A stretch of DNA of 64,000 bases from Bacteroides coprosuis DSM 18011 (GTDB taxonomy: Bacteria; Bacteroidota; Bacteroidia; Bacteroidales; Bacteroidaceae): positions 62,001 through 126,000 of the forward strand of contig CM001167.1 in assembly GCA_000212915.1 (NCBI GenBank). The letters are read 5' to 3'. This document shows, piece after piece, positions 3,680 through 50,227 of the stretch. Numbering within the stretch: the stretch's first letter is position 1; each line of letters starts with the position of its first letter. The notes under the pieces were generated by a model. The model worked only from the letters and a program-made list of their open reading frames with translations. It ran no database searches and was not told the origin of the DNA. The position numbers and the translations under genes are program-made.

Positions 3680-4171
3680 TTAGCCTGCTAATTCTATAAC
3701 TTCTAAATCTTTAAAAACACCTTTATCTATAGTAAAGCGCACCATTGTACGCACTTTGTGAAAACCCGAAATTCCTGCTGCTCCAGGATTGACATGTAAC
3801 ATATTTAATGTTTTATCATATTTTACTTTTAAAATATGAGAGTGTCCACTAATAAACAACTGAGGGGGATTAATAAATAGAGAGCTCTGAATTGAAGGGT
3901 CATATTTACCTGGATAGCCTCCGATGTGTTTTATAACCACTTCTGCACCATCTACTTTAAAACGATTTACCTGAGGATAAATCTTACGTATATCTTGTCC
4001 ATCAATATTTCCATAAACGGCTCTTACTTTCTTATACTCAGCTAGTTTTTGAATTAAAACGAGTGAACCTATATCTCCAGCATGCCATATTTCATCGCAA
4101 TCAGTAAAATAAGTTAAATACTTATCATCCCAATATCCATGAGTATCTGATAATAATCCAATTTTTGTCAT
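3680..4171 (-). CDS. YfcE/MJ0936-type metallophosphodiesterase
   Basis: Small cytoplasmic phosphoesterase of 163 residues. Metal-binding motifs in order are LLSDTHGYWDD (residues 5-15), WHAGDIGS, VYGNIDGQ, HIGGYPG and SGHSHILKV, followed by VNPGAAG; this is the normal order for the YfcE/MJ0936 family of phosphodiesterases. No signal peptide is present. The ATG at 4171 places the first motif five residues from the N-terminus; a TTG further upstream would add ten unconserved residues. The natural substrate is not evident. Its stop abuts the menA stop. Confidence 0.88.
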   Translation of the reverse strand: MTKIGLLSDTHGYWDDKYLTYFTDCDEIWHAGDIGSLVLIQKLAEYKKVRAVYGNIDGQDIRKIYPQVNRFKVDGAEVVIKHIGGYPGKYDPSIQSSLFINPPQLFISGHSHILKVKYDKTLNMLHVNPGAAGISGFHKVRTMVRFTIDKGVFKDLEVIELAG

Positions 4172-4301
4172 TCCTATTTCGTTTATTAAACGAAGGTACA
4201 ATCTTTAGAGAAAAACAACAATCAAACTTTAAAATAGTCCTTTTCTCATCTTCATATATTTCCTCGTACATAGATAGTTTAACGGATATCTATTATCATC
4301 A

Positions 4302-4360
4302 TGACACCGACAAGAGTAAACTTTGACACCGACATCGTAATGACATGTCGGTGTCAAAGT
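4302..4360. repeat. Dispersed intergenic repeat, copy 1 (TGACACCGACAT motifs)
   Basis: TGACACCGACA at 4302-4312, TGACACCGACAT at 4324-4335 and the inverted ATGTCGGTGTCA from 4345 are spaced 22 and 21 bp apart. The last two belong to a perfect 16-bp inverted repeat (4320-4335 and 4345-4360) with a 9-base loop. The same architecture recurs at 29352-29410 and, degenerate, at 50155-50227. The element lies between the divergent phosphodiesterase and ABC-F genes and has no T-run. Function unknown. Confidence 0.8.
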
Positions 4361-4578: not shown

Positions 4579-6210
4579 ATGGTATCAGTAGACGGATTAA
4601 CAGTAGAATTTGGAGGTTCAGCCCTATTTAGTGATGTATCTTTTGTAATAAACCCTAGTGATAGAATAGCCCTAATGGGTAAAAACGGAGCAGGTAAATC
4701 TACTTTGCTTAAAATTTTATCAGGAAAAAGAGAAGCTACTCGAGGAAAGGTTGCTGCTCCAAAAGATTGTAAAATAGCTTATTTGCCTCAGCATTTAATG
4801 ACAGAAGATGGTAGAACTGTCTTTGAGGAAGCTGCTCAAGCTTTTTCTCACATCCACGATATGGAAAAAGAGATTGCTGATATCAATGAACAACTAGCTA
4901 CAAGAACAGATTATGAGAGCGATGAGTACATGCAGCTCATAGAACAAGTAGCTACATTAAGTGAAAAGTTTTATACTATTGAAGATATCAATTATGATGA
5001 GAATATAGAAAAGGCTTTACTGGGGCTAGGCTTTTCTAGAGCAGACTTTGATCAACCTACCAATAAGTTCAGTGGTGGCTGGCGTATGCGTATCGAATTA
5101 GCTAAACTATTACTCCAAGAACCTGATGTCCTTTTACTTGATGAGCCTACAAACCATTTAGATATTGAGTCTATTCAATGGCTTGAAGAGTTTTTAGTTG
5201 CCAACAATAAAGCAGTTGTAGTTATTAGCCACGATAGAAAATTTGTGGATAGCATTACTACTCGTACGATTGAAGTTACTATGGGTAGAATTTACGATTA
5301 CAAAGTAAACTATTCTAAGTACCTAGAGCTTCGAAAAGAAAGACGAGAACAACAATTAAAAGCATACGAAGAACAACAAAAGTTCATTTCTGATACTAAG
5401 GATTTTATAGAAAGATTCAAAGGAACTTATTCTAAAACTTTACAAGTACAAAGTAGAGTTAAGATGCTCGAAAAACTCGAAATTATACAAGTAGATGAAA
5501 TTGATACTTCAGCAATTCGACTACAGTTTCCTCCTGCACCTCGCTCAGGAAGTTATCCTGTTATCATGGAAGGCGTTGGCAAAACTTATGGAGATCATGT
5601 TGTATTCAAAGATGCCAACTTAGTAATTGAAAGAGGAGATAAATTAGCTTTCGTTGGAAAAAATGGTGAGGGAAAATCAACCCTAGTGAAATGTATCATG
5701 GAGGAAATCGAACATGATGGAGAGTTGAAAGTTGGTCATAACGTCAAAATAGGCTATTTTGCACAAAACCAAGCATCTCTACTCGATGAAGAGTTAACTG
5801 TATTCCAAACGATTGACGATGTAGCCGTAGGTGAAATAAGAAATAGGATAAAAGATTTATTGGGTGCCTTTATGTTTGGAGGAGAAGAATCAACAAAGAA
5901 GGTAAAAGTACTTTCGGGTGGAGAAAGAACTCGATTAGCTCTTCTTAAACTTTTATTGGAACCTGTAAACTTATTAATTCTCGATGAGCCTACCAATCAC
6001 CTAGATTTAGTCACTAAAGATATTTTAAAACAAGCACTGATTAAGTTTGATGGAACATTTATTGTTGTTTCTCATGATAGAGATTTCCTAGATGGACTAG
6101 TAGATAAAGTCTATGAGTTTGGTAATAAGAAGGTAAGAGAGCATCTAGGTGGAATCTACGATTTCTTGGAATCCAAGAAAATAGAATCACTTCAAGAATT
6201 AGAACATTAA
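4579..6210 (+). CDS. ABC-F family ATPase (ribosome-associated type)
   Basis: Soluble protein of 543 residues with two fused ATP-binding cassettes and no membrane segment, as in ABC-F translation factors. The first Walker A is GKNGAGKST (about residues 35-43), with signature SGGWRMR and Walker B LLLDEPTNHLD. The second has Walker A GKNGEGKST, signature LSGGERTRL and Walker B LILDEPTNHLD. The charged ABC-F linker, about residues 245-315, lies between them. ABC-F proteins act on the ribosome, some giving antibiotic protection; nothing here points to resistance, and the length fits the housekeeping YbiT-like branch. Confidence 0.93.
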   Translation: MVSVDGLTVEFGGSALFSDVSFVINPSDRIALMGKNGAGKSTLLKILSGKREATRGKVAAPKDCKIAYLPQHLMTEDGRTVFEEAAQAFSHIHDMEKEIADINEQLATRTDYESDEYMQLIEQVATLSEKFYTIEDINYDENIEKALLGLGFSRADFDQPTNKFSGGWRMRIELAKLLLQEPDVLLLDEPTNHLDIESIQWLEEFLVANNKAVVVISHDRKFVDSITTRTIEVTMGRIYDYKVNYSKYLELRKERREQQLKAYEEQQKFISDTKDFIERFKGTYSKTLQVQSRVKMLEKLEIIQVDEIDTSAIRLQFPPAPRSGSYPVIMEGVGKTYGDHVVFKDANLVIERGDKLAFVGKNGEGKSTLVKCIMEEIEHDGELKVGHNVKIGYFAQNQASLLDEELTVFQTIDDVAVGEIRNRIKDLLGAFMFGGEESTKKVKVLSGGERTRLALLKLLLEPVNLLILDEPTNHLDLVTKDILKQALIKFDGTFIVVSHDRDFLDGLVDKVYEFGNKKVREHLGGIYDFLESKKIESLQELEH

Positions 6211-6797: not shown

Positions 6798-7940
6798 ATG
6801 AACAAAATATTATATTTTGCACTTTGTAGTGCATTCTTATTAGGTGCTTGTAAAGCAAACACCTCAGAAAACCATGACCACGCCGAAGAAGCTCACGCAC
6901 ACGACCACGAACATGGAGAAAATGTAGTAGAACTCTCAAAAGAAAAAGCGAAAGCAGCAGGGGTCCTATCAGATATTATTAAAGTAGAGCCTTTTCAAAA
7001 TGTAATCAAAACAGGAGGTAAGATTCTAGCAGCACAAGGAGATGAGTCTGTTGTAGTAGCTACCATTCCAGGGATTGTTAGTTTACCTCACAAATTGGTT
7101 GAGGGATTAGCTATACAAAACGGACAAAGAGTCGCTTCATTATCTTCAAGAAATATTCAAGATGGTGACCCAGCACAACGTGCTCGCATCAATTTTGAAA
7201 TCGCAAAACAAGAGTATGAACGTGTATTACCACTAGTCGATAGCAAAATTATTACTCAAAAAGACTTTGCTAAAATCAAACAAGAATACGAAAATGCGCG
7301 TATCAGCTATGAAGCAAATGCTAAAGGACACACAGCCAACGGACAAGATATTAAATCTCCACTAGCTGGTTATGTGAAATCAATCTATGTAAAAGAGGGT
7401 GATTATGTTAATGTAGGGCAGCCACTAATGAGTATAACTAAAAACAAACGTCTGTACTTAAGAGCAGAGGTTTCTGAGCGATATTATACGCAATTAAAAG
7501 ATATTACGTCTGCACACTTTAAATCATCTTACTACGACCAAGTTTATAAACTGGATGACTTGCAGGGAGAAGTTCTTTCTTTTGGCAAAAACCCATCAGA
7601 AAATGGTTATTTATTACCAATTACCTTTGCTTTTAATAATATAGGAGATATTGTGCCAGACTCTTTTGTTGAAGTGTATCTCCTTTCTAAAAATAAAGAA
7701 GATGCAATAGCCCTACCCTACTCTGCAATTACTGAGGAACAGGGTTTGTACTTTGCATACAAGCAACTCTGTGAAGAGGAGTATGAGAAAGTAGAAATAA
7801 AATTAGGAGTTGATAATGGAGAAAAAGTAGAAATACTTTCTGGGATAAAAGAAGGCGATAGAATCGTACAAAAAGGTGCTCAGCAAATTAAATTAGCTTC
7901 AGCAACTAGTTCTATTCCAGCTCATACACACGAACACTAA
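6798..7940 (+). CDS. RND efflux periplasmic adaptor lipoprotein (CusB/CzcB type)
   Basis: Membrane-fusion component linking an inner-membrane RND pump to an outer-membrane channel. The 380-residue protein starts with a lipoprotein signal (lipobox LLGAC, about residues 14-18). A His/Asp/Glu-rich stretch follows (HDHAEEAHAHDHEHGE), a likely metal-binding patch. Then come barrel-sandwich and hairpin domains, including IKSPLAGYVKSIYVKEGDYV, and a C-terminal beta-barrel region with VQKGAQQIK. The C-terminus is again His-rich (HTHEH). The pump gene follows after 14 bases. The His-rich ends point to a heavy-metal substrate rather than drugs. Confidence 0.9.
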   Translation: MNKILYFALCSAFLLGACKANTSENHDHAEEAHAHDHEHGENVVELSKEKAKAAGVLSDIIKVEPFQNVIKTGGKILAAQGDESVVVATIPGIVSLPHKLVEGLAIQNGQRVASLSSRNIQDGDPAQRARINFEIAKQEYERVLPLVDSKIITQKDFAKIKQEYENARISYEANAKGHTANGQDIKSPLAGYVKSIYVKEGDYVNVGQPLMSITKNKRLYLRAEVSERYYTQLKDITSAHFKSSYYDQVYKLDDLQGEVLSFGKNPSENGYLLPITFAFNNIGDIVPDSFVEVYLLSKNKEDAIALPYSAITEEQGLYFAYKQLCEEEYEKVEIKLGVDNGEKVEILSGIKEGDRIVQKGAQQIKLASATSSIPAHTHEH

Positions 7941-28140: not shown

Positions 28141-29121
28141 ATGAAAACTATTCAGTGTGTAGGGATACTAACCTCTGGTGGTGATGCACCAGGAATGAAT
28201 GCAGCTATACGTGCTATTACCCGTGCAGCTGTATATAAAGGGCTCAAAGTCAAAGGGATATATAGAGGATACAAAGGTCTGGTTACCGGAGAAATCAAAG
28301 AATTCAAGAGTGAAGATGTTAGTAACATCATCCAAATGGGTGGAACTATCCTTAAAACAGCAAGATGCAAGGAGTTCAAAACCGAAGAAGGAAGAAAACA
28401 AGCTTATGAAAACATTCAAAAAGAAGGCATCGATGCTCTTATTGTAATCGGTGGTGATGGTTCTCTTAGCGGAGCTAGAATTTTTGCTCAGGAATACAAT
28501 CTGCCTTGCATCGGACTACCTGGCACTATTGATAACGACTTATTTGGTACAGATATTACCATAGGTTATGATACAGCCTTGAATACTATACTTGATGCTG
28601 TGGATAAAATTAGAGATACAGCCTCATCTCACGAAAGACTATTCTTTGTTGAAGTGATGGGACGTGACGCAGGTTTCTTAGCTCTCAATGGAGCTATTGC
28701 TGCTGGAGCAGAAGCTGCTATTATACCAGAATTCAGCACAAAAGATGACCAATTAGAAGCTTTAATTAGTCGTGGATTTAGAAAATCTAAAACAAGTAGT
28801 ATCGTACTTGTAGCAGAAAGCGAACTAACAGGTGGAGCAATGCACTTAGCTGAACGCGTTAAAAATGAATATCCTCAATATGATGTACGTGTTACTATTC
28901 TGGGCCACTTACAACGTGGTGGTAGTCCAAGTGCCAACGATCGTATCTTAGCTAGTCGCTTGGGTGTAGCAGCTATTGATGCCCTTATGGAAGGTTATCA
29001 CAATGTAATGATTGGTATAGAAAATGATGAAGTAGTTTATGTTCCTTTTAGAAAAGCTATAAAGAATGATAAACCGATAAAAGAAGAGTTAGTGCAAGTA
29101 CTTGCTGAACTTTCTATCTAA
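28141..29121 (+). CDS. pfkA: 6-phosphofructokinase, ATP-dependent type
   Basis: Phosphorylates fructose 6-phosphate in glycolysis. At 326 residues it fits the short bacterial PfkA. The N-terminus has [20 protein letters not shown]; the ATP site reads [12 protein letters not shown], with Gly after GGD as in ATP-users rather than the Asp of PPi-users. The catalytic [20 protein letters not shown] follows, then [12 protein letters not shown] and [15 protein letters not shown]. It is monocistronic between a promoter and a terminator. Confidence 0.96.
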
Positions 29122-29347: not shown

Positions 29348-29410
29348 ACTTTGACACCGACATGAGAACACTCTGACACCGACATGACGATTACATGTCG
29401 GTGTCAAAGT
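29348..29410. repeat. Dispersed intergenic repeat, copy 2 (TGACACCGACAT motifs)
   Basis: Between the convergent pfkA and gltA genes, ACTTTGACACCGACAT (29348-29363) is followed by TGACACCGACAT (29374-29385) and the inverted ATGTCGGTGTCAAAGT (29395-29410). Motif spacing is 22 and 21 bp, as in copy 1. This is the best-preserved copy. The remaining sequence of the 29191-29538 gap shows no gene. Confidence 0.85.
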
Positions 29411-29538: not shown

Positions 29539-30882
29539 TTATCTCCTACTTAAAGGAACATAATCTTGATCAGTAACAACTGTCTTATAAGCAGGACGGA
29601 TAATACGTTTACCTTGGAAGTTTAATTCTTCATTTCTATGAGCACACCATCCTACGATACGAGCCATAGCAAATAATGGAGTATAGATTTCATGAGGTAA
29701 TCCTATCATTTCATATACGAAACCTGAATAGAAGTCCACATTACTTGAAACTGTCTTTCCATTTGCTTTTACTCTAGCAAAAGTCTTAATCGCTCGATCT
29801 TCAAGCAGCTCAAGGAATGCAAATTCTTTTTCTCTTCCTTTTTCCTTAGCCAAATCTCTAGCCAATTCTCTTAACAATAAAGCTCTTGGATCTGAAATGG
29901 TATACACAGCATGGCCAATACCGTAAATAAGACCACTCTTATTGTATACTTCTTTACGCAACATGCGTTCAAAGTATGCATCAATTTCTTTGATATCCGA
30001 CCAGTTGGTTATGTTTTCTTGTAAGTGATGGAACATATCCACAACTTGTATATTGGCACCACCATGAAGAGGTCCTTTTAAGGAGCCTATACCAGCAGCA
30101 ATAGCAGAGTAAGTATCTGTACCCGTTGATGATGTTACACGTACTGAGAATGTAGAGTTGTTACCACCACCGTGTTCAGCGTGCAACATGAGTAATAAAT
30201 CTAATGTACGAGCATCCAACTCAGTGAAGTCTTTCATTAGCATATACAAAAAGTTTGCTGCTAAACTTAATTCTTCTCTAGGGTGCCTTACGTGTAATGA
30301 ACGACCAAAGGTAGCGTGTCTCAACATATTATAGGCATATGCTATAATGGTGGGGAATTTAGCTATCAAGTTAATACTTTGGCGCATCAAGTTATCACGA
30401 GAAGTATCATCAGGATTTTCATCAAACGTATATAATTCGAGAACACTACGAGCCAAAATATTCATAATATTAGAGCCTTCTAGTTCTAATATGTTCATAA
30501 ATGTTTTATGCTCCAAAGCTGTATTATCTACCAATAGCTTTCTAAAATCTTCCAATTCATCTCTATCAGGCAAATCTCCCGATAAGAGCAAATAAGCTAC
30601 CTCCTCAAACCCAAAGCGCTTATCAGCCATCACCCCATGTGCTAAATCTTCAACATCATATCCTCTATAGAAAAGCTTTCCAGGAATAGGCTTCATGCCT
30701 CCCCCTTCAATCCTTTCATAACCTACAACATTACCTATTCTGGTTAATCCAACTAAGACTCCTGTACCGTCATCGTTACGTAAGCCTCGTTTTACATCAT
30801 ATTTTTTGAATAGGTCATTATCAATCTTGGCACAATCTTTCATCTTTTCTGAAAGCTTGTAAATTAAAAATTCATCTTTCAT
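29539..30882 (-). CDS. gltA: Citrate synthase
   Basis: Condenses oxaloacetate and acetyl-CoA. The 447-residue protein carries the active-site segments LMLHAEHGGGNNSTF, GIGHAVYTISDPRA and NVDFYSGFVYEMIGLP, with catalytic His and Asp retained. YRGYDVEDLAHG near residue 70 is also typical. It is the last gene of the acnA-icd-gltA cluster (21 bases after icd). In anaerobic Bacteroidales this oxidative branch mainly supplies 2-oxoglutarate for glutamate rather than a full TCA cycle; that part is family knowledge. Confidence 0.95.
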   Translation of the reverse strand: MKDEFLIYKLSEKMKDCAKIDNDLFKKYDVKRGLRNDDGTGVLVGLTRIGNVVGYERIEGGGMKPIPGKLFYRGYDVEDLAHGVMADKRFGFEEVAYLLLSGDLPDRDELEDFRKLLVDNTALEHKTFMNILELEGSNIMNILARSVLELYTFDENPDDTSRDNLMRQSINLIAKFPTIIAYAYNMLRHATFGRSLHVRHPREELSLAANFLYMLMKDFTELDARTLDLLLMLHAEHGGGNNSTFSVRVTSSTGTDTYSAIAAGIGSLKGPLHGGANIQVVDMFHHLQENITNWSDIKEIDAYFERMLRKEVYNKSGLIYGIGHAVYTISDPRALLLRELARDLAKEKGREKEFAFLELLEDRAIKTFARVKANGKTVSSNVDFYSGFVYEMIGLPHEIYTPLFAMARIVGWCAHRNEELNFQGKRIIRPAYKTVVTDQDYVPLSRR

Positions 30883-48646: not shown

Positions 48647-49819
48647 TTACTTGAACATTCCATCAATGAGGTTGATGGCTTCCTCCTTCTTCTTATCTAC
48701 GATTTTCGCATAGATTTCAGTGGTCTGAATGTTGGTGTGACCCATCAACTTGCTTGTGGTGAACAGGTCTGCGCCAAGTGTCAGCATCATTGTGCCGAAG
48801 GTGTGACGTGAACAGTGGAAACTGATGTGCTTCTCTACACCTGCTGCCTCTGCCCATTTGCGAAGGGCTCTGCCTATGACGGTCTGAGTAGTTGGTATAT
48901 CAAAGAAGGGAGTTGTTATTCCCTTTGGTTTTGGTAACCAACGCTTTGCCTCTTCAGAGAGTGGGATGATGACAGGCTTCTCCGTCTTCTGCATTTCCAT
49001 GTCAATATACTCGCCCTTGCCGTCAGGAGTCTTGAAAATGTGAATCGGTGCAAGTTTGTACATATCACTGAGTCGCAATCCAGTGAAACAAGCAAAGATG
49101 AAGGCTTGCTTGACCTCTGGGCGGTAACTGTCGGTTGCCATGAGGGCTTTAAGTTCCTCAATGGTAAGGTATTCCTTCTTGCCATCCTTTGGCTGAATGC
49201 GCTCCTTGGCATCCAGTTCCTTCATTGGATTGTTTCGGATAATACCTTGACGGACAGCATTGTTGAGAGTAGTCGAGAACATGCCGAGGTAACGGCTTGC
49301 CGTGTTCTGGCTGATAGGTCTTGGCTCAATGTACTTGCAGTGTGAGTTTGGGAAGGTGCGAAGGAACTTCACATACCCACGGCAGAAATCAGCATTGACC
49401 TCTTCAAGGGTGATGAAGGTCTGATTGGACTCTTCAAGATATTTCTCCACGGTGTGAAGCATTTCAACACGACAATGGAGGGTTGACTTCTTGGTGCTGA
49501 CTCCACCTTCACAATACTTCTTGATCCATCCTGTCAAGAGTTGTGAACCCTGCTTGACGGTTTCCCAGTCTTGCACTCCGTGACCATGGAGAGCCTTGAT
49601 GCGCTCTGCCTTGATACGTTCTGCGAGTGCCATCGTTTCCTTGTTCTGCTCCTTGCAGAGTGGATTGACCTCAGGAATGATATAGAGTTTCAGATACTCA
49701 TACTTTCTGACTCCCTTCCAGTAGATGTCAAGATAGATACTCTTGTTGCCATCTGCGAGAGGTTTGAGACGAATCTTAATCGGCTCCTTCAGTTTGACTT
49801 GTTTCTTTGGTCTTGCCAT
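48647..49819 (-). CDS. Tyrosine recombinase 3 (tandem pair, upstream member)
   Basis: 390-residue integrase next to the right end of the island. The arm domain has KSIYLDIYWKGVRKYEYLKL, parallel to recombinase 2. The catalytic domain has ACFTGLRLSDMYKL (Arg), HCSRHTFGTMMLTLGAD (HxxR) and LMGHTNIQTTEIYAKI with the Tyr nucleophile. Being nearest the island end it is a good candidate for the integrase acting on the att sites. A -7 box lies 137 bases upstream. Confidence 0.92.
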   Translation of the reverse strand: MARPKKQVKLKEPIKIRLKPLADGNKSIYLDIYWKGVRKYEYLKLYIIPEVNPLCKEQNKETMALAERIKAERIKALHGHGVQDWETVKQGSQLLTGWIKKYCEGGVSTKKSTLHCRVEMLHTVEKYLEESNQTFITLEEVNADFCRGYVKFLRTFPNSHCKYIEPRPISQNTASRYLGMFSTTLNNAVRQGIIRNNPMKELDAKERIQPKDGKKEYLTIEELKALMATDSYRPEVKQAFIFACFTGLRLSDMYKLAPIHIFKTPDGKGEYIDMEMQKTEKPVIIPLSEEAKRWLPKPKGITTPFFDIPTTQTVIGRALRKWAEAAGVEKHISFHCSRHTFGTMMLTLGADLFTTSKLMGHTNIQTTEIYAKIVDKKKEEAINLIDGMFK

Positions 49820-50154: not shown

Positions 50155-50227
50155 CTAGTCAAGAGATCATCATGTCGGTGTCATGATGTTCTCTTGACTA
50201 AGGCAAACCTTTATCATATCGGTGTCA
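50155..50227. repeat. Dispersed intergenic repeat, copy 3 (degenerate)
   Basis: ATGTCGGTGTCA (50172-50183) and ATATCGGTGTCA (50216-50227) lie 44 bp apart, twice the 22-bp spacing of copies 1 and 2. The spacer GAGAACA seen in copy 2 is shared on the opposite strand. The middle motif is decayed. A separate long hairpin (CTAGTCAAGAGA... 50155-50174 with 50182-50200, one mismatch) is centred on the first motif. Confidence 0.65.

Follow-up and report, generated by a model that had tools for sequence, protein, structure and literature searches.

Arrays in the window

The window analysed here, i.e., the whole 64,000-nucleotide stretch of the chromosome of Bacteroides coprosuis, a bacterium of swine manure, contains three arrays of a conserved 11-bp core. 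The first lies between a metallophosphoesterase gene and an ABC-F gene, which are divergent, and the second between the convergent genes pfkA and gltA. The features are as follows, in window coordinates.

3680-4201, minus strand: metallophosphoesterase gene
4302-4356: array 1 (++-), with cores at 4302-4312 (+), 4324-4334 (+) and 4346-4356 (-) and spacers at 4313-4323 and 4335-4345
4579-6210, plus strand: ABC-F gene
28141-29121, plus strand: pfkA
29352-29406: array 2 (++-), with cores at 29352-29362 (+), 29374-29384 (+) and 29396-29406 (-) and spacers at 29363-29373 and 29385-29395
29539-30882, minus strand: gltA
50173-50227, minus strand: array 3, with cores at 50173-50183 (-) and, 44 bp on, at 50217-50227 (-, one mismatch)
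50195-50205: degenerate core TGACTAAGGCA within array 3, in the frame TRWCNNNGWYA and on the common 22-bp grid

The first-pass annotation had reported two copies of a dispersed element, at 4302 and 29352; the observation is real and both positions are confirmed, while the third array, at 50173-50227, had been overlooked. The first motif of copy 1 ends in A rather than T, so that it departs from the 12-mer TGACACCGACAT at one position and is an exact copy of the 11-mer TGACACCGACA. The spacing of 22 and 21 bp given at that time is a product of the choice of the 12-mer, both steps being 22 bp with the 11-mer, and the GAG-rich spacer that was noted is one version of a degenerate 11-bp spacer pattern. 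With up to two mismatches allowed, the window has 11 matches, whereas 100 shuffled versions average 2.81 and none of them reached 11. Arrays 1 and 2 have folding z-scores of -4.06 and -6.19, respectively, and array 3, with -1.62, folds poorly. That no known repeat family was recognised before agrees with our searches: Rfam at gathering scores matched only a tRNA in the window, leaving the arrays without a match to a structured RNA family, and the literature searched by motif (two orientations) or by topic gave no such array family, the motif matches being unrelated by title. It is also noted that a tyrosine integrase gene (48647-49819; Arm-DNA-bind_5, Phage_int_SAM_5 and Phage_integrase domains) lies near array 3 and perhaps marks the end of an integrated element.

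Occurrence in the genome and the 22-bp lattice

The genome of B. coprosuis PC139T has 2,991,798 bp according to PMC3111995. In the one contig of this length the exact 12-mer occurs 266 times (150 forward and 116 reverse), with the reversed 12-mer, taken as the control, occurring 0 times forward and once in reverse, and thus an absence of further copies is excluded. We sampled 1.70 Mb (57% of the genome) in three blocks, A (62,001-526,000, which includes the window), B (1,460,001-1,860,000) and C (2,100,001-2,932,000). The predictions for block C were fixed beforehand, with about 40 kb round the longest array already read and the exact motifs of the reverse strand likewise known as far as 2.69 Mb. 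A cluster is defined as at least two cores, each with no more than one mismatch, that lie within 120 bp of one another, or as a single exact core, which gives 82 clusters, 20 in A, 25 in B and 37 in C. Under this rule 4 of the 49 groups in A and B were left out, all of them lone cores with one mismatch, and the same rule gives the 37 in C; one of the lone cores left out, at genome position 520,744, may be real. By extrapolation from the sample the genome has roughly 145 arrays.

The spacings between adjacent cores in the 82 clusters are 22 bp in 128 cases, 44 bp in four and 66 bp in one, so that all 133 are multiples of 22 bp and none is off the grid, whatever the orientation of the cores; the 72 spacings of block C, taken separately, all fall on the grid. 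The earlier proposal that a protein binds cooperatively along a single DNA face is compatible with this grid. The most frequent orientation patterns are ++- (21 clusters), ++ (12), -- (10), +-- (9), +++ (8) and +- (6), besides others, with an inverted pair of cores present in 45 of the 82 clusters and all cores in one orientation in the other 37. Moreover, the grid continues beyond the outermost cores. When a degenerate core is defined by at least seven of the eight positions of the frame TRWCNNNGWYA, it is found 22 bp past the outermost core in 45 of the 116 flanks of 58 clusters and at 44 bp in 13 of 116, whereas eight off-grid shifts give 0-2 of 116 each.

The largest arrays have 11 units (at 2,251,892) and 8 units (at 2,369,872). 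The 11-unit array (genome 2,251,892-2,252,122) consists of direct units of a nearly identical 22-mer, and just downstream of it lie two genes, one with a WYL_2 and one with a Lin1244_N domain; the proteins adjoining the longest arrays show nothing beyond weak HTH matches.

Sequence of the cores and spacers

Among the on-grid cores with at most two mismatches, 166 of 229 are exact, and 61 of the 77 core substitutions are G2>A or C10>T, two positions that are symmetric in the box. The core identity of 94.5% and the information of 21.3 bits are both inflated by the selection for at most two mismatches, which leaves the concentration of changes at the two positions uninflated. A further 70 on-grid units belong mostly to other classes (TAACCCTGATA, TGACTAAGTCA, TGACCTAGTCA and their relatives). 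The 11-bp spacers, with a pairwise identity of 50.2% and 8.1 bits, are diverse and not random, having roughly the consensus W-S-R-Y-R-W-Y-R-Y-S-W. For the 42 pairs of opposed cores that are 22 bp apart, the complementarity of the spacer halves is 0.40 compared with 0.52 after shuffling (2000 of 2000 shuffles reaching at least the observed value). The spacers are thus anti-complementary, which argues against selection for a hairpin and in favour of the DNA being read as a series of boxes. A covariation of the spacers in ++- arrays, which had been suspected by eye, fails over all pairs.

Only 14.5 bits are needed to find 266 sites, and the 21.3 bits of the core, being larger, hint at spread via copying. 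Among the matches listed, arrays at unlinked loci are up to 96% identical over about 55 bp and the similarity between loci mostly stops at the array edges; one 34-mer is identical at six places. Longer similarities also appear among the matches listed. The loci at genome 236,518, 854,141 and 2,818,971 have about 285-305 bp in common at 92-95% identity, including a -+ array, which exceeds the usual similarity restricted to the array. Repeats adjoining arrays share 196 bp at 97% between 323,090 and 347,479, another such repeat matches 677,717 over 107 bp at 97%, and 126 bp are identical between 399,147 and 677,717. In block C a putative insertion sequence with two transposase ORFs (genome 2,714,233 and 2,715,729) seems to interrupt one array, its terminal 246 bp being identical, among the matches listed, to a copy at 538,186.

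Placement relative to genes

All 82 clusters lie outside predicted ORFs, which, together with the 266 exact copies, bears out the earlier description of a dispersed intergenic family. The gene contexts are from our own ORF caller, whose omissions include at least the short 117-aa WYL_2 ORF adjoining the longest array. Among intergenic regions of at least 140 bp, an array is present in 34 of the 83 that are convergent, in 39 of the 280 tandem ones and in 9 of the 139 divergent ones, array 1 of the window being one of these nine (Fisher test, convergent versus tandem, p = 5e-7; divergent versus tandem, p = 0.02). The preference for convergent regions is found in all three blocks (p = 0.0001, 0.03 and 0.007 in A, B and C). 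The avoidance of divergent regions is weak (p = 0.16, 0.04 and 0.64, respectively) and is absent in block C, where 6 of 62 divergent and 18 of 145 tandem regions have an array. In tandem regions the upstream stop codon is the closer one in 34 of 39 cases, with a median distance of 163 bp. The orientation of the cores is unbiased to transcription (48 versus 59, p = 0.33), which favours action as DNA over action as RNA. The genes next to the loci that were read are varied, so that these copies are not confined to one known family of mobile elements, an outcome that the first-pass annotation had considered.

Distribution along the chromosome

Arrays seldom have close neighbours. Gaps below 8 kb number 4, compared with 24.5 expected from type-matched random intergenic regions (0 of 10,000 simulations gave as few), and in block C they number 2, compared with 10.9 expected (0 of 10,000). 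The exact 12-mers up to 2.10 Mb form 106 clusters with a mean gap of 19.8 kb and a coefficient of variation (CV) of 0.529; uniform placement gives 0.986 for this set, with 0 of 20,000 simulations as low as observed. In blocks A and B the CV of the spacing is 0.377, while type-matched intergenic regions give 0.88 (none of 10,000 simulations as low); averaged by block, the two values are 0.335 and 0.836. The CV of block C, 0.811, is unremarkable, with 1505 of 10,000 simulations as low, and that of the three blocks together is 0.644 (1 of 10,000 as low). The prediction of a low CV failed in block C, where the lattice, the convergent preference and the shortage of close neighbours all held. Post hoc removal of two islands that lie in long gaps of C lowers the CV to 0.544. 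Judged from protein starts, these two gaps contain an apparent conjugative element and an apparent polysaccharide gene cluster, respectively; the former (about 2,548,000-2,613,000) has tra-like genes and an Erm-like rRNA methylase, and no array was found inside it. In the 12-mer data up to 2.10 Mb the density rises from the presumed origin, placed at the flip of the GC skew, towards the presumed terminus; the prediction that this gradient is continued in block C failed.

As a control we used 400 kb of E. coli K-12 with 18 REP clusters. Gaps below 0.4 of the mean are 5 of 16 for the REP clusters and 4 of 79 for the B. coprosuis arrays (p = 0.006), with CVs of 0.692 and 0.644, respectively. Since the CVs are alike, it is the shortage of short gaps and not the CV that distinguishes the array family in this small control.

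Species range

The 12-mer was scanned in 60 relatives, 398 other genomes of the family and 394 other genomes of the phylum, the last two sets being drawn from larger groups; four genomes are common to the sets of 398 and 394, giving 788 in total, and many of the 60 relatives are inside the 398. The exact 12-mer is at background level in the 788 other phylum genomes, with 0-5 copies in the family genomes except for 11 in one, where there is a repeat of 348-bp period, and at most 3 in each of the 394. Both same-genus genomes have 0 exact 12-mers, which would be odd if the arrays served a core chromosome function. In one of the two, the genome of the sister species, the order pfkA-gltA is kept, with an 88-bp spacer in which the motif is absent, and 400 kb of that genome have no comparable enriched word and no 22-bp signal. 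Moreover, 59 places at home match a profile built on the 55-bp array, with E down to 2.8e-17, compared with a best E of 0.002 in 100 relatives. There is no match in viral contigs, plasmids and phages.

Two matches were found in other genome contigs, one in a Klebsiella-labelled record and one in a Draconibacterium contig, and both were set aside as coincidence. In the former (7858-7890) the same 11-mer stands three times in tandem with an 11-bp period, equal to the proposed box length, which is probably chance. The latter (1900-2700) carries Cas1 and Cas2 together with a weak match to Y1_Tnp, and it has two TGACACCGACA-like copies in inverted arrangement, followed 22 bp on by another.

Discussion

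We propose that the arrays are clustered sites for one sequence-specific, oligomeric DNA-binding protein, probably with a structural role, a reading that we favour tentatively and with confidence just short of even. In the proposed model an array would be a lattice of abutting 11-bp boxes, in which the strong boxes are the cores, TRACACCGAYA, and the boxes between them, i.e., the spacers, are weaker and degenerate, and in which the outer boxes would often be of the other, degenerate classes. The strong sites, recurring every 22 bp or two helical turns, would be presented on one face of the DNA in either direction of the core, and the bound protein would probably be dimeric and assemble cooperatively. 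Changes at two core positions, free spacers, phasing that is blind to orientation and continuation by weak boxes are together as expected from a cooperative DNA-binding oligomer. Note also that the placement at gene 3' ends, the lack of strand bias and the mutual avoidance fit a structural role in the chromosome better than gene control. With about 145 arrays between genes, mostly past stop codons, often in convergent regions and seldom less than 8 kb apart, the protein would likely have a chromosome-wide structural job, the arrays serving, e.g., as points at which a protein of the nucleoid, of domain boundaries or of segregation starts to assemble, rather than as elements that control single promoters. 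The interpretation given by the first-pass annotation is, as a whole, partly supported.

The strongest rival, which we regard as possible although somewhat doubtful, is that the arrays are a miniature non-autonomous mobile repeat of the REP/REPIN/BIME kind, whose transposase is lost or unrecognised and whose placement downstream of genes reflects mere selection against harmful insertions. Like the REPs and BIMEs of Enterobacteria and Pseudomonas, the arrays have more than 100 extragenic copies, species-specific in the sample, in mosaic clusters with units both ways, and the suggested role in the chromosome is also alike, since gyrase, IHF and Pol I are bound by BIMEs and REPs, for which a part in chromosome organisation has been suggested (PMC2817692); however, each unit here is a core of 11 bp, set on a rigid 22-bp grid, rather than a stem-loop of 20-40 bp with a GTAG or CGTC tag. 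Either tag, which a REP has at one end according to PMC3733652, is found within 8 bp of the array ends in 6 of 164 cases, while a control position 60 bp away from the array gives 12 of 164. PMC3733652 also describes CGTC-tagged REPs that have no dedicated transposase in five phyla including Bacteroidetes, which would suit a mobile repeat in a genome where, unlike in REP/BIME systems, no RAYT was found: PF01797 (Y1_Tnp) has 0 genomic matches up to E 0.1, with a control search positive in 8 of 14 genomes, and the Y1_Tnp-like protein of Draconibacterium, as a protein query, has 0 at E up to 1 in a search run without a positive control. The inverted layouts that are common here (++- 21 and +-- 9 of 82), and the inverted pairs with short spacers in 45 of 82 arrays, resemble REPINs, but in 37 of 82 clusters all cores point the same way and there is hence no such pair, the spacers between opposed cores are anti-complementary, and the substitutions are almost restricted to two core positions. 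A mobile repeat would be consistent with the similarity that, among the matches listed, mostly ends at the array edges and reaches 96% over about 55 bp, with the identical 34-mer at six places, with the core information beyond that needed for finding the sites and with the CV resembling that of the E. coli REPs; it is at odds with the deficit of close neighbours (4 versus 24.5 gaps below 8 kb), since REPIN doublets are randomly distributed over extragenic space according to PMC3116915 and the E. coli REPs of the 400-kb control do not share this deficit. If the arrays are of this kind, the genome would have a dispersed repeat that obeys a rigid 22-bp grammar although no transposase is visible, and a different cause, e.g., insertion immunity, would have to account for the shortage of close neighbours. 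Both readings can be partly true, with a repeat that spread by copying being retained later for binding.

Helically phased arrays of multiple sites are typical of cooperative repressors and activators, and nine arrays do lie in divergent regions, so that the arrays could be operators of a large regulon, with a transcription factor controlling the adjacent genes; but divergent regions, which have two promoters, are the least used (9 of 139) and convergent ones the most (34 of 83), the tandem arrays have a median distance of 163 bp to the upstream stop codon and the genes near the loci read are varied, which makes this explanation improbable. The position near gene 3' ends and the good folding of the two copies reported first (z of -4.06 and -6.19) would be expected from an RNA element, i.e., a hairpin or terminator that is formed in transcripts of either direction where convergent genes end. 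The hairpin that the first-pass annotation had considered is not sustained as a general function, because an inverted core pair is lacking from 37 of 82 clusters, the inner spacers avoid complementarity and array 3 folds poorly (z of -1.62); there is moreover no strand bias and, by eye, no T-run after the stems in the window, and we consider an RNA element very improbable. A DNA uptake signal for natural transformation would likewise be over-represented, intergenic and not seen in the sampled relatives, but uptake does not need a multi-unit 22-bp lattice, and 266 exact copies in 3 Mb are far below the numbers of known uptake words, so that we give this explanation hardly any weight.

Returning to the binding of an oligomeric protein, the arrays, read as abutting, helically phased short boxes, resemble parC/ParR with its 11-bp direct repeats, the omega heptads and the MetJ-type boxes, where abutting short boxes with helical phasing are bound by cooperative dimers. 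Those systems have one or a few plasmid or promoter loci and a known protein, whereas there are about 145 chromosomal loci here by extrapolation. Like matS/MatP and parS/ParB, the family has short conserved sites scattered along the chromosome, but those are single sites in a macrodomain or in the origin region, and here there are arrays, in both orientations, in all three blocks. The search for a cognate protein covered ParB_N and RHH_1. The genome has one ParB_N, as in 5 of 5 relatives checked, and no RHH_1 at E up to 0.05, so that among these two families neither a cognate protein, which counts against the proposed model, nor the additional ParB or RHH protein expected of a ParB/parS or RHH partition array was found. 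The arrays also differ from an iteron-type origin array, which is a single locus beside a Rep gene, there being 82 loci in 1.70 Mb, with the 11-unit array near a Lin1244_N-domain gene.

An extension of the proposed model, which we consider rather unlikely in its full form, is that of a lineage-specific system for addressing the chromosome, in which about 145 phased arrays near gene 3' ends, usually 10-30 kb apart, would be used by a putative protein to partition domains, the system having been acquired or evolved since the split from the sister species. To our knowledge, little is known about the chromosome-organising factors of the Bacteroidetes phylum, and if a protein does coat the arrays, they would be a natural and countable set of domain markers in this phylum. 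Finally, we note that dnaA lies at position 441, yet the sign of the GC skew flips at about 0.35-0.4 Mb; given this flip, the origin may be far from dnaA.
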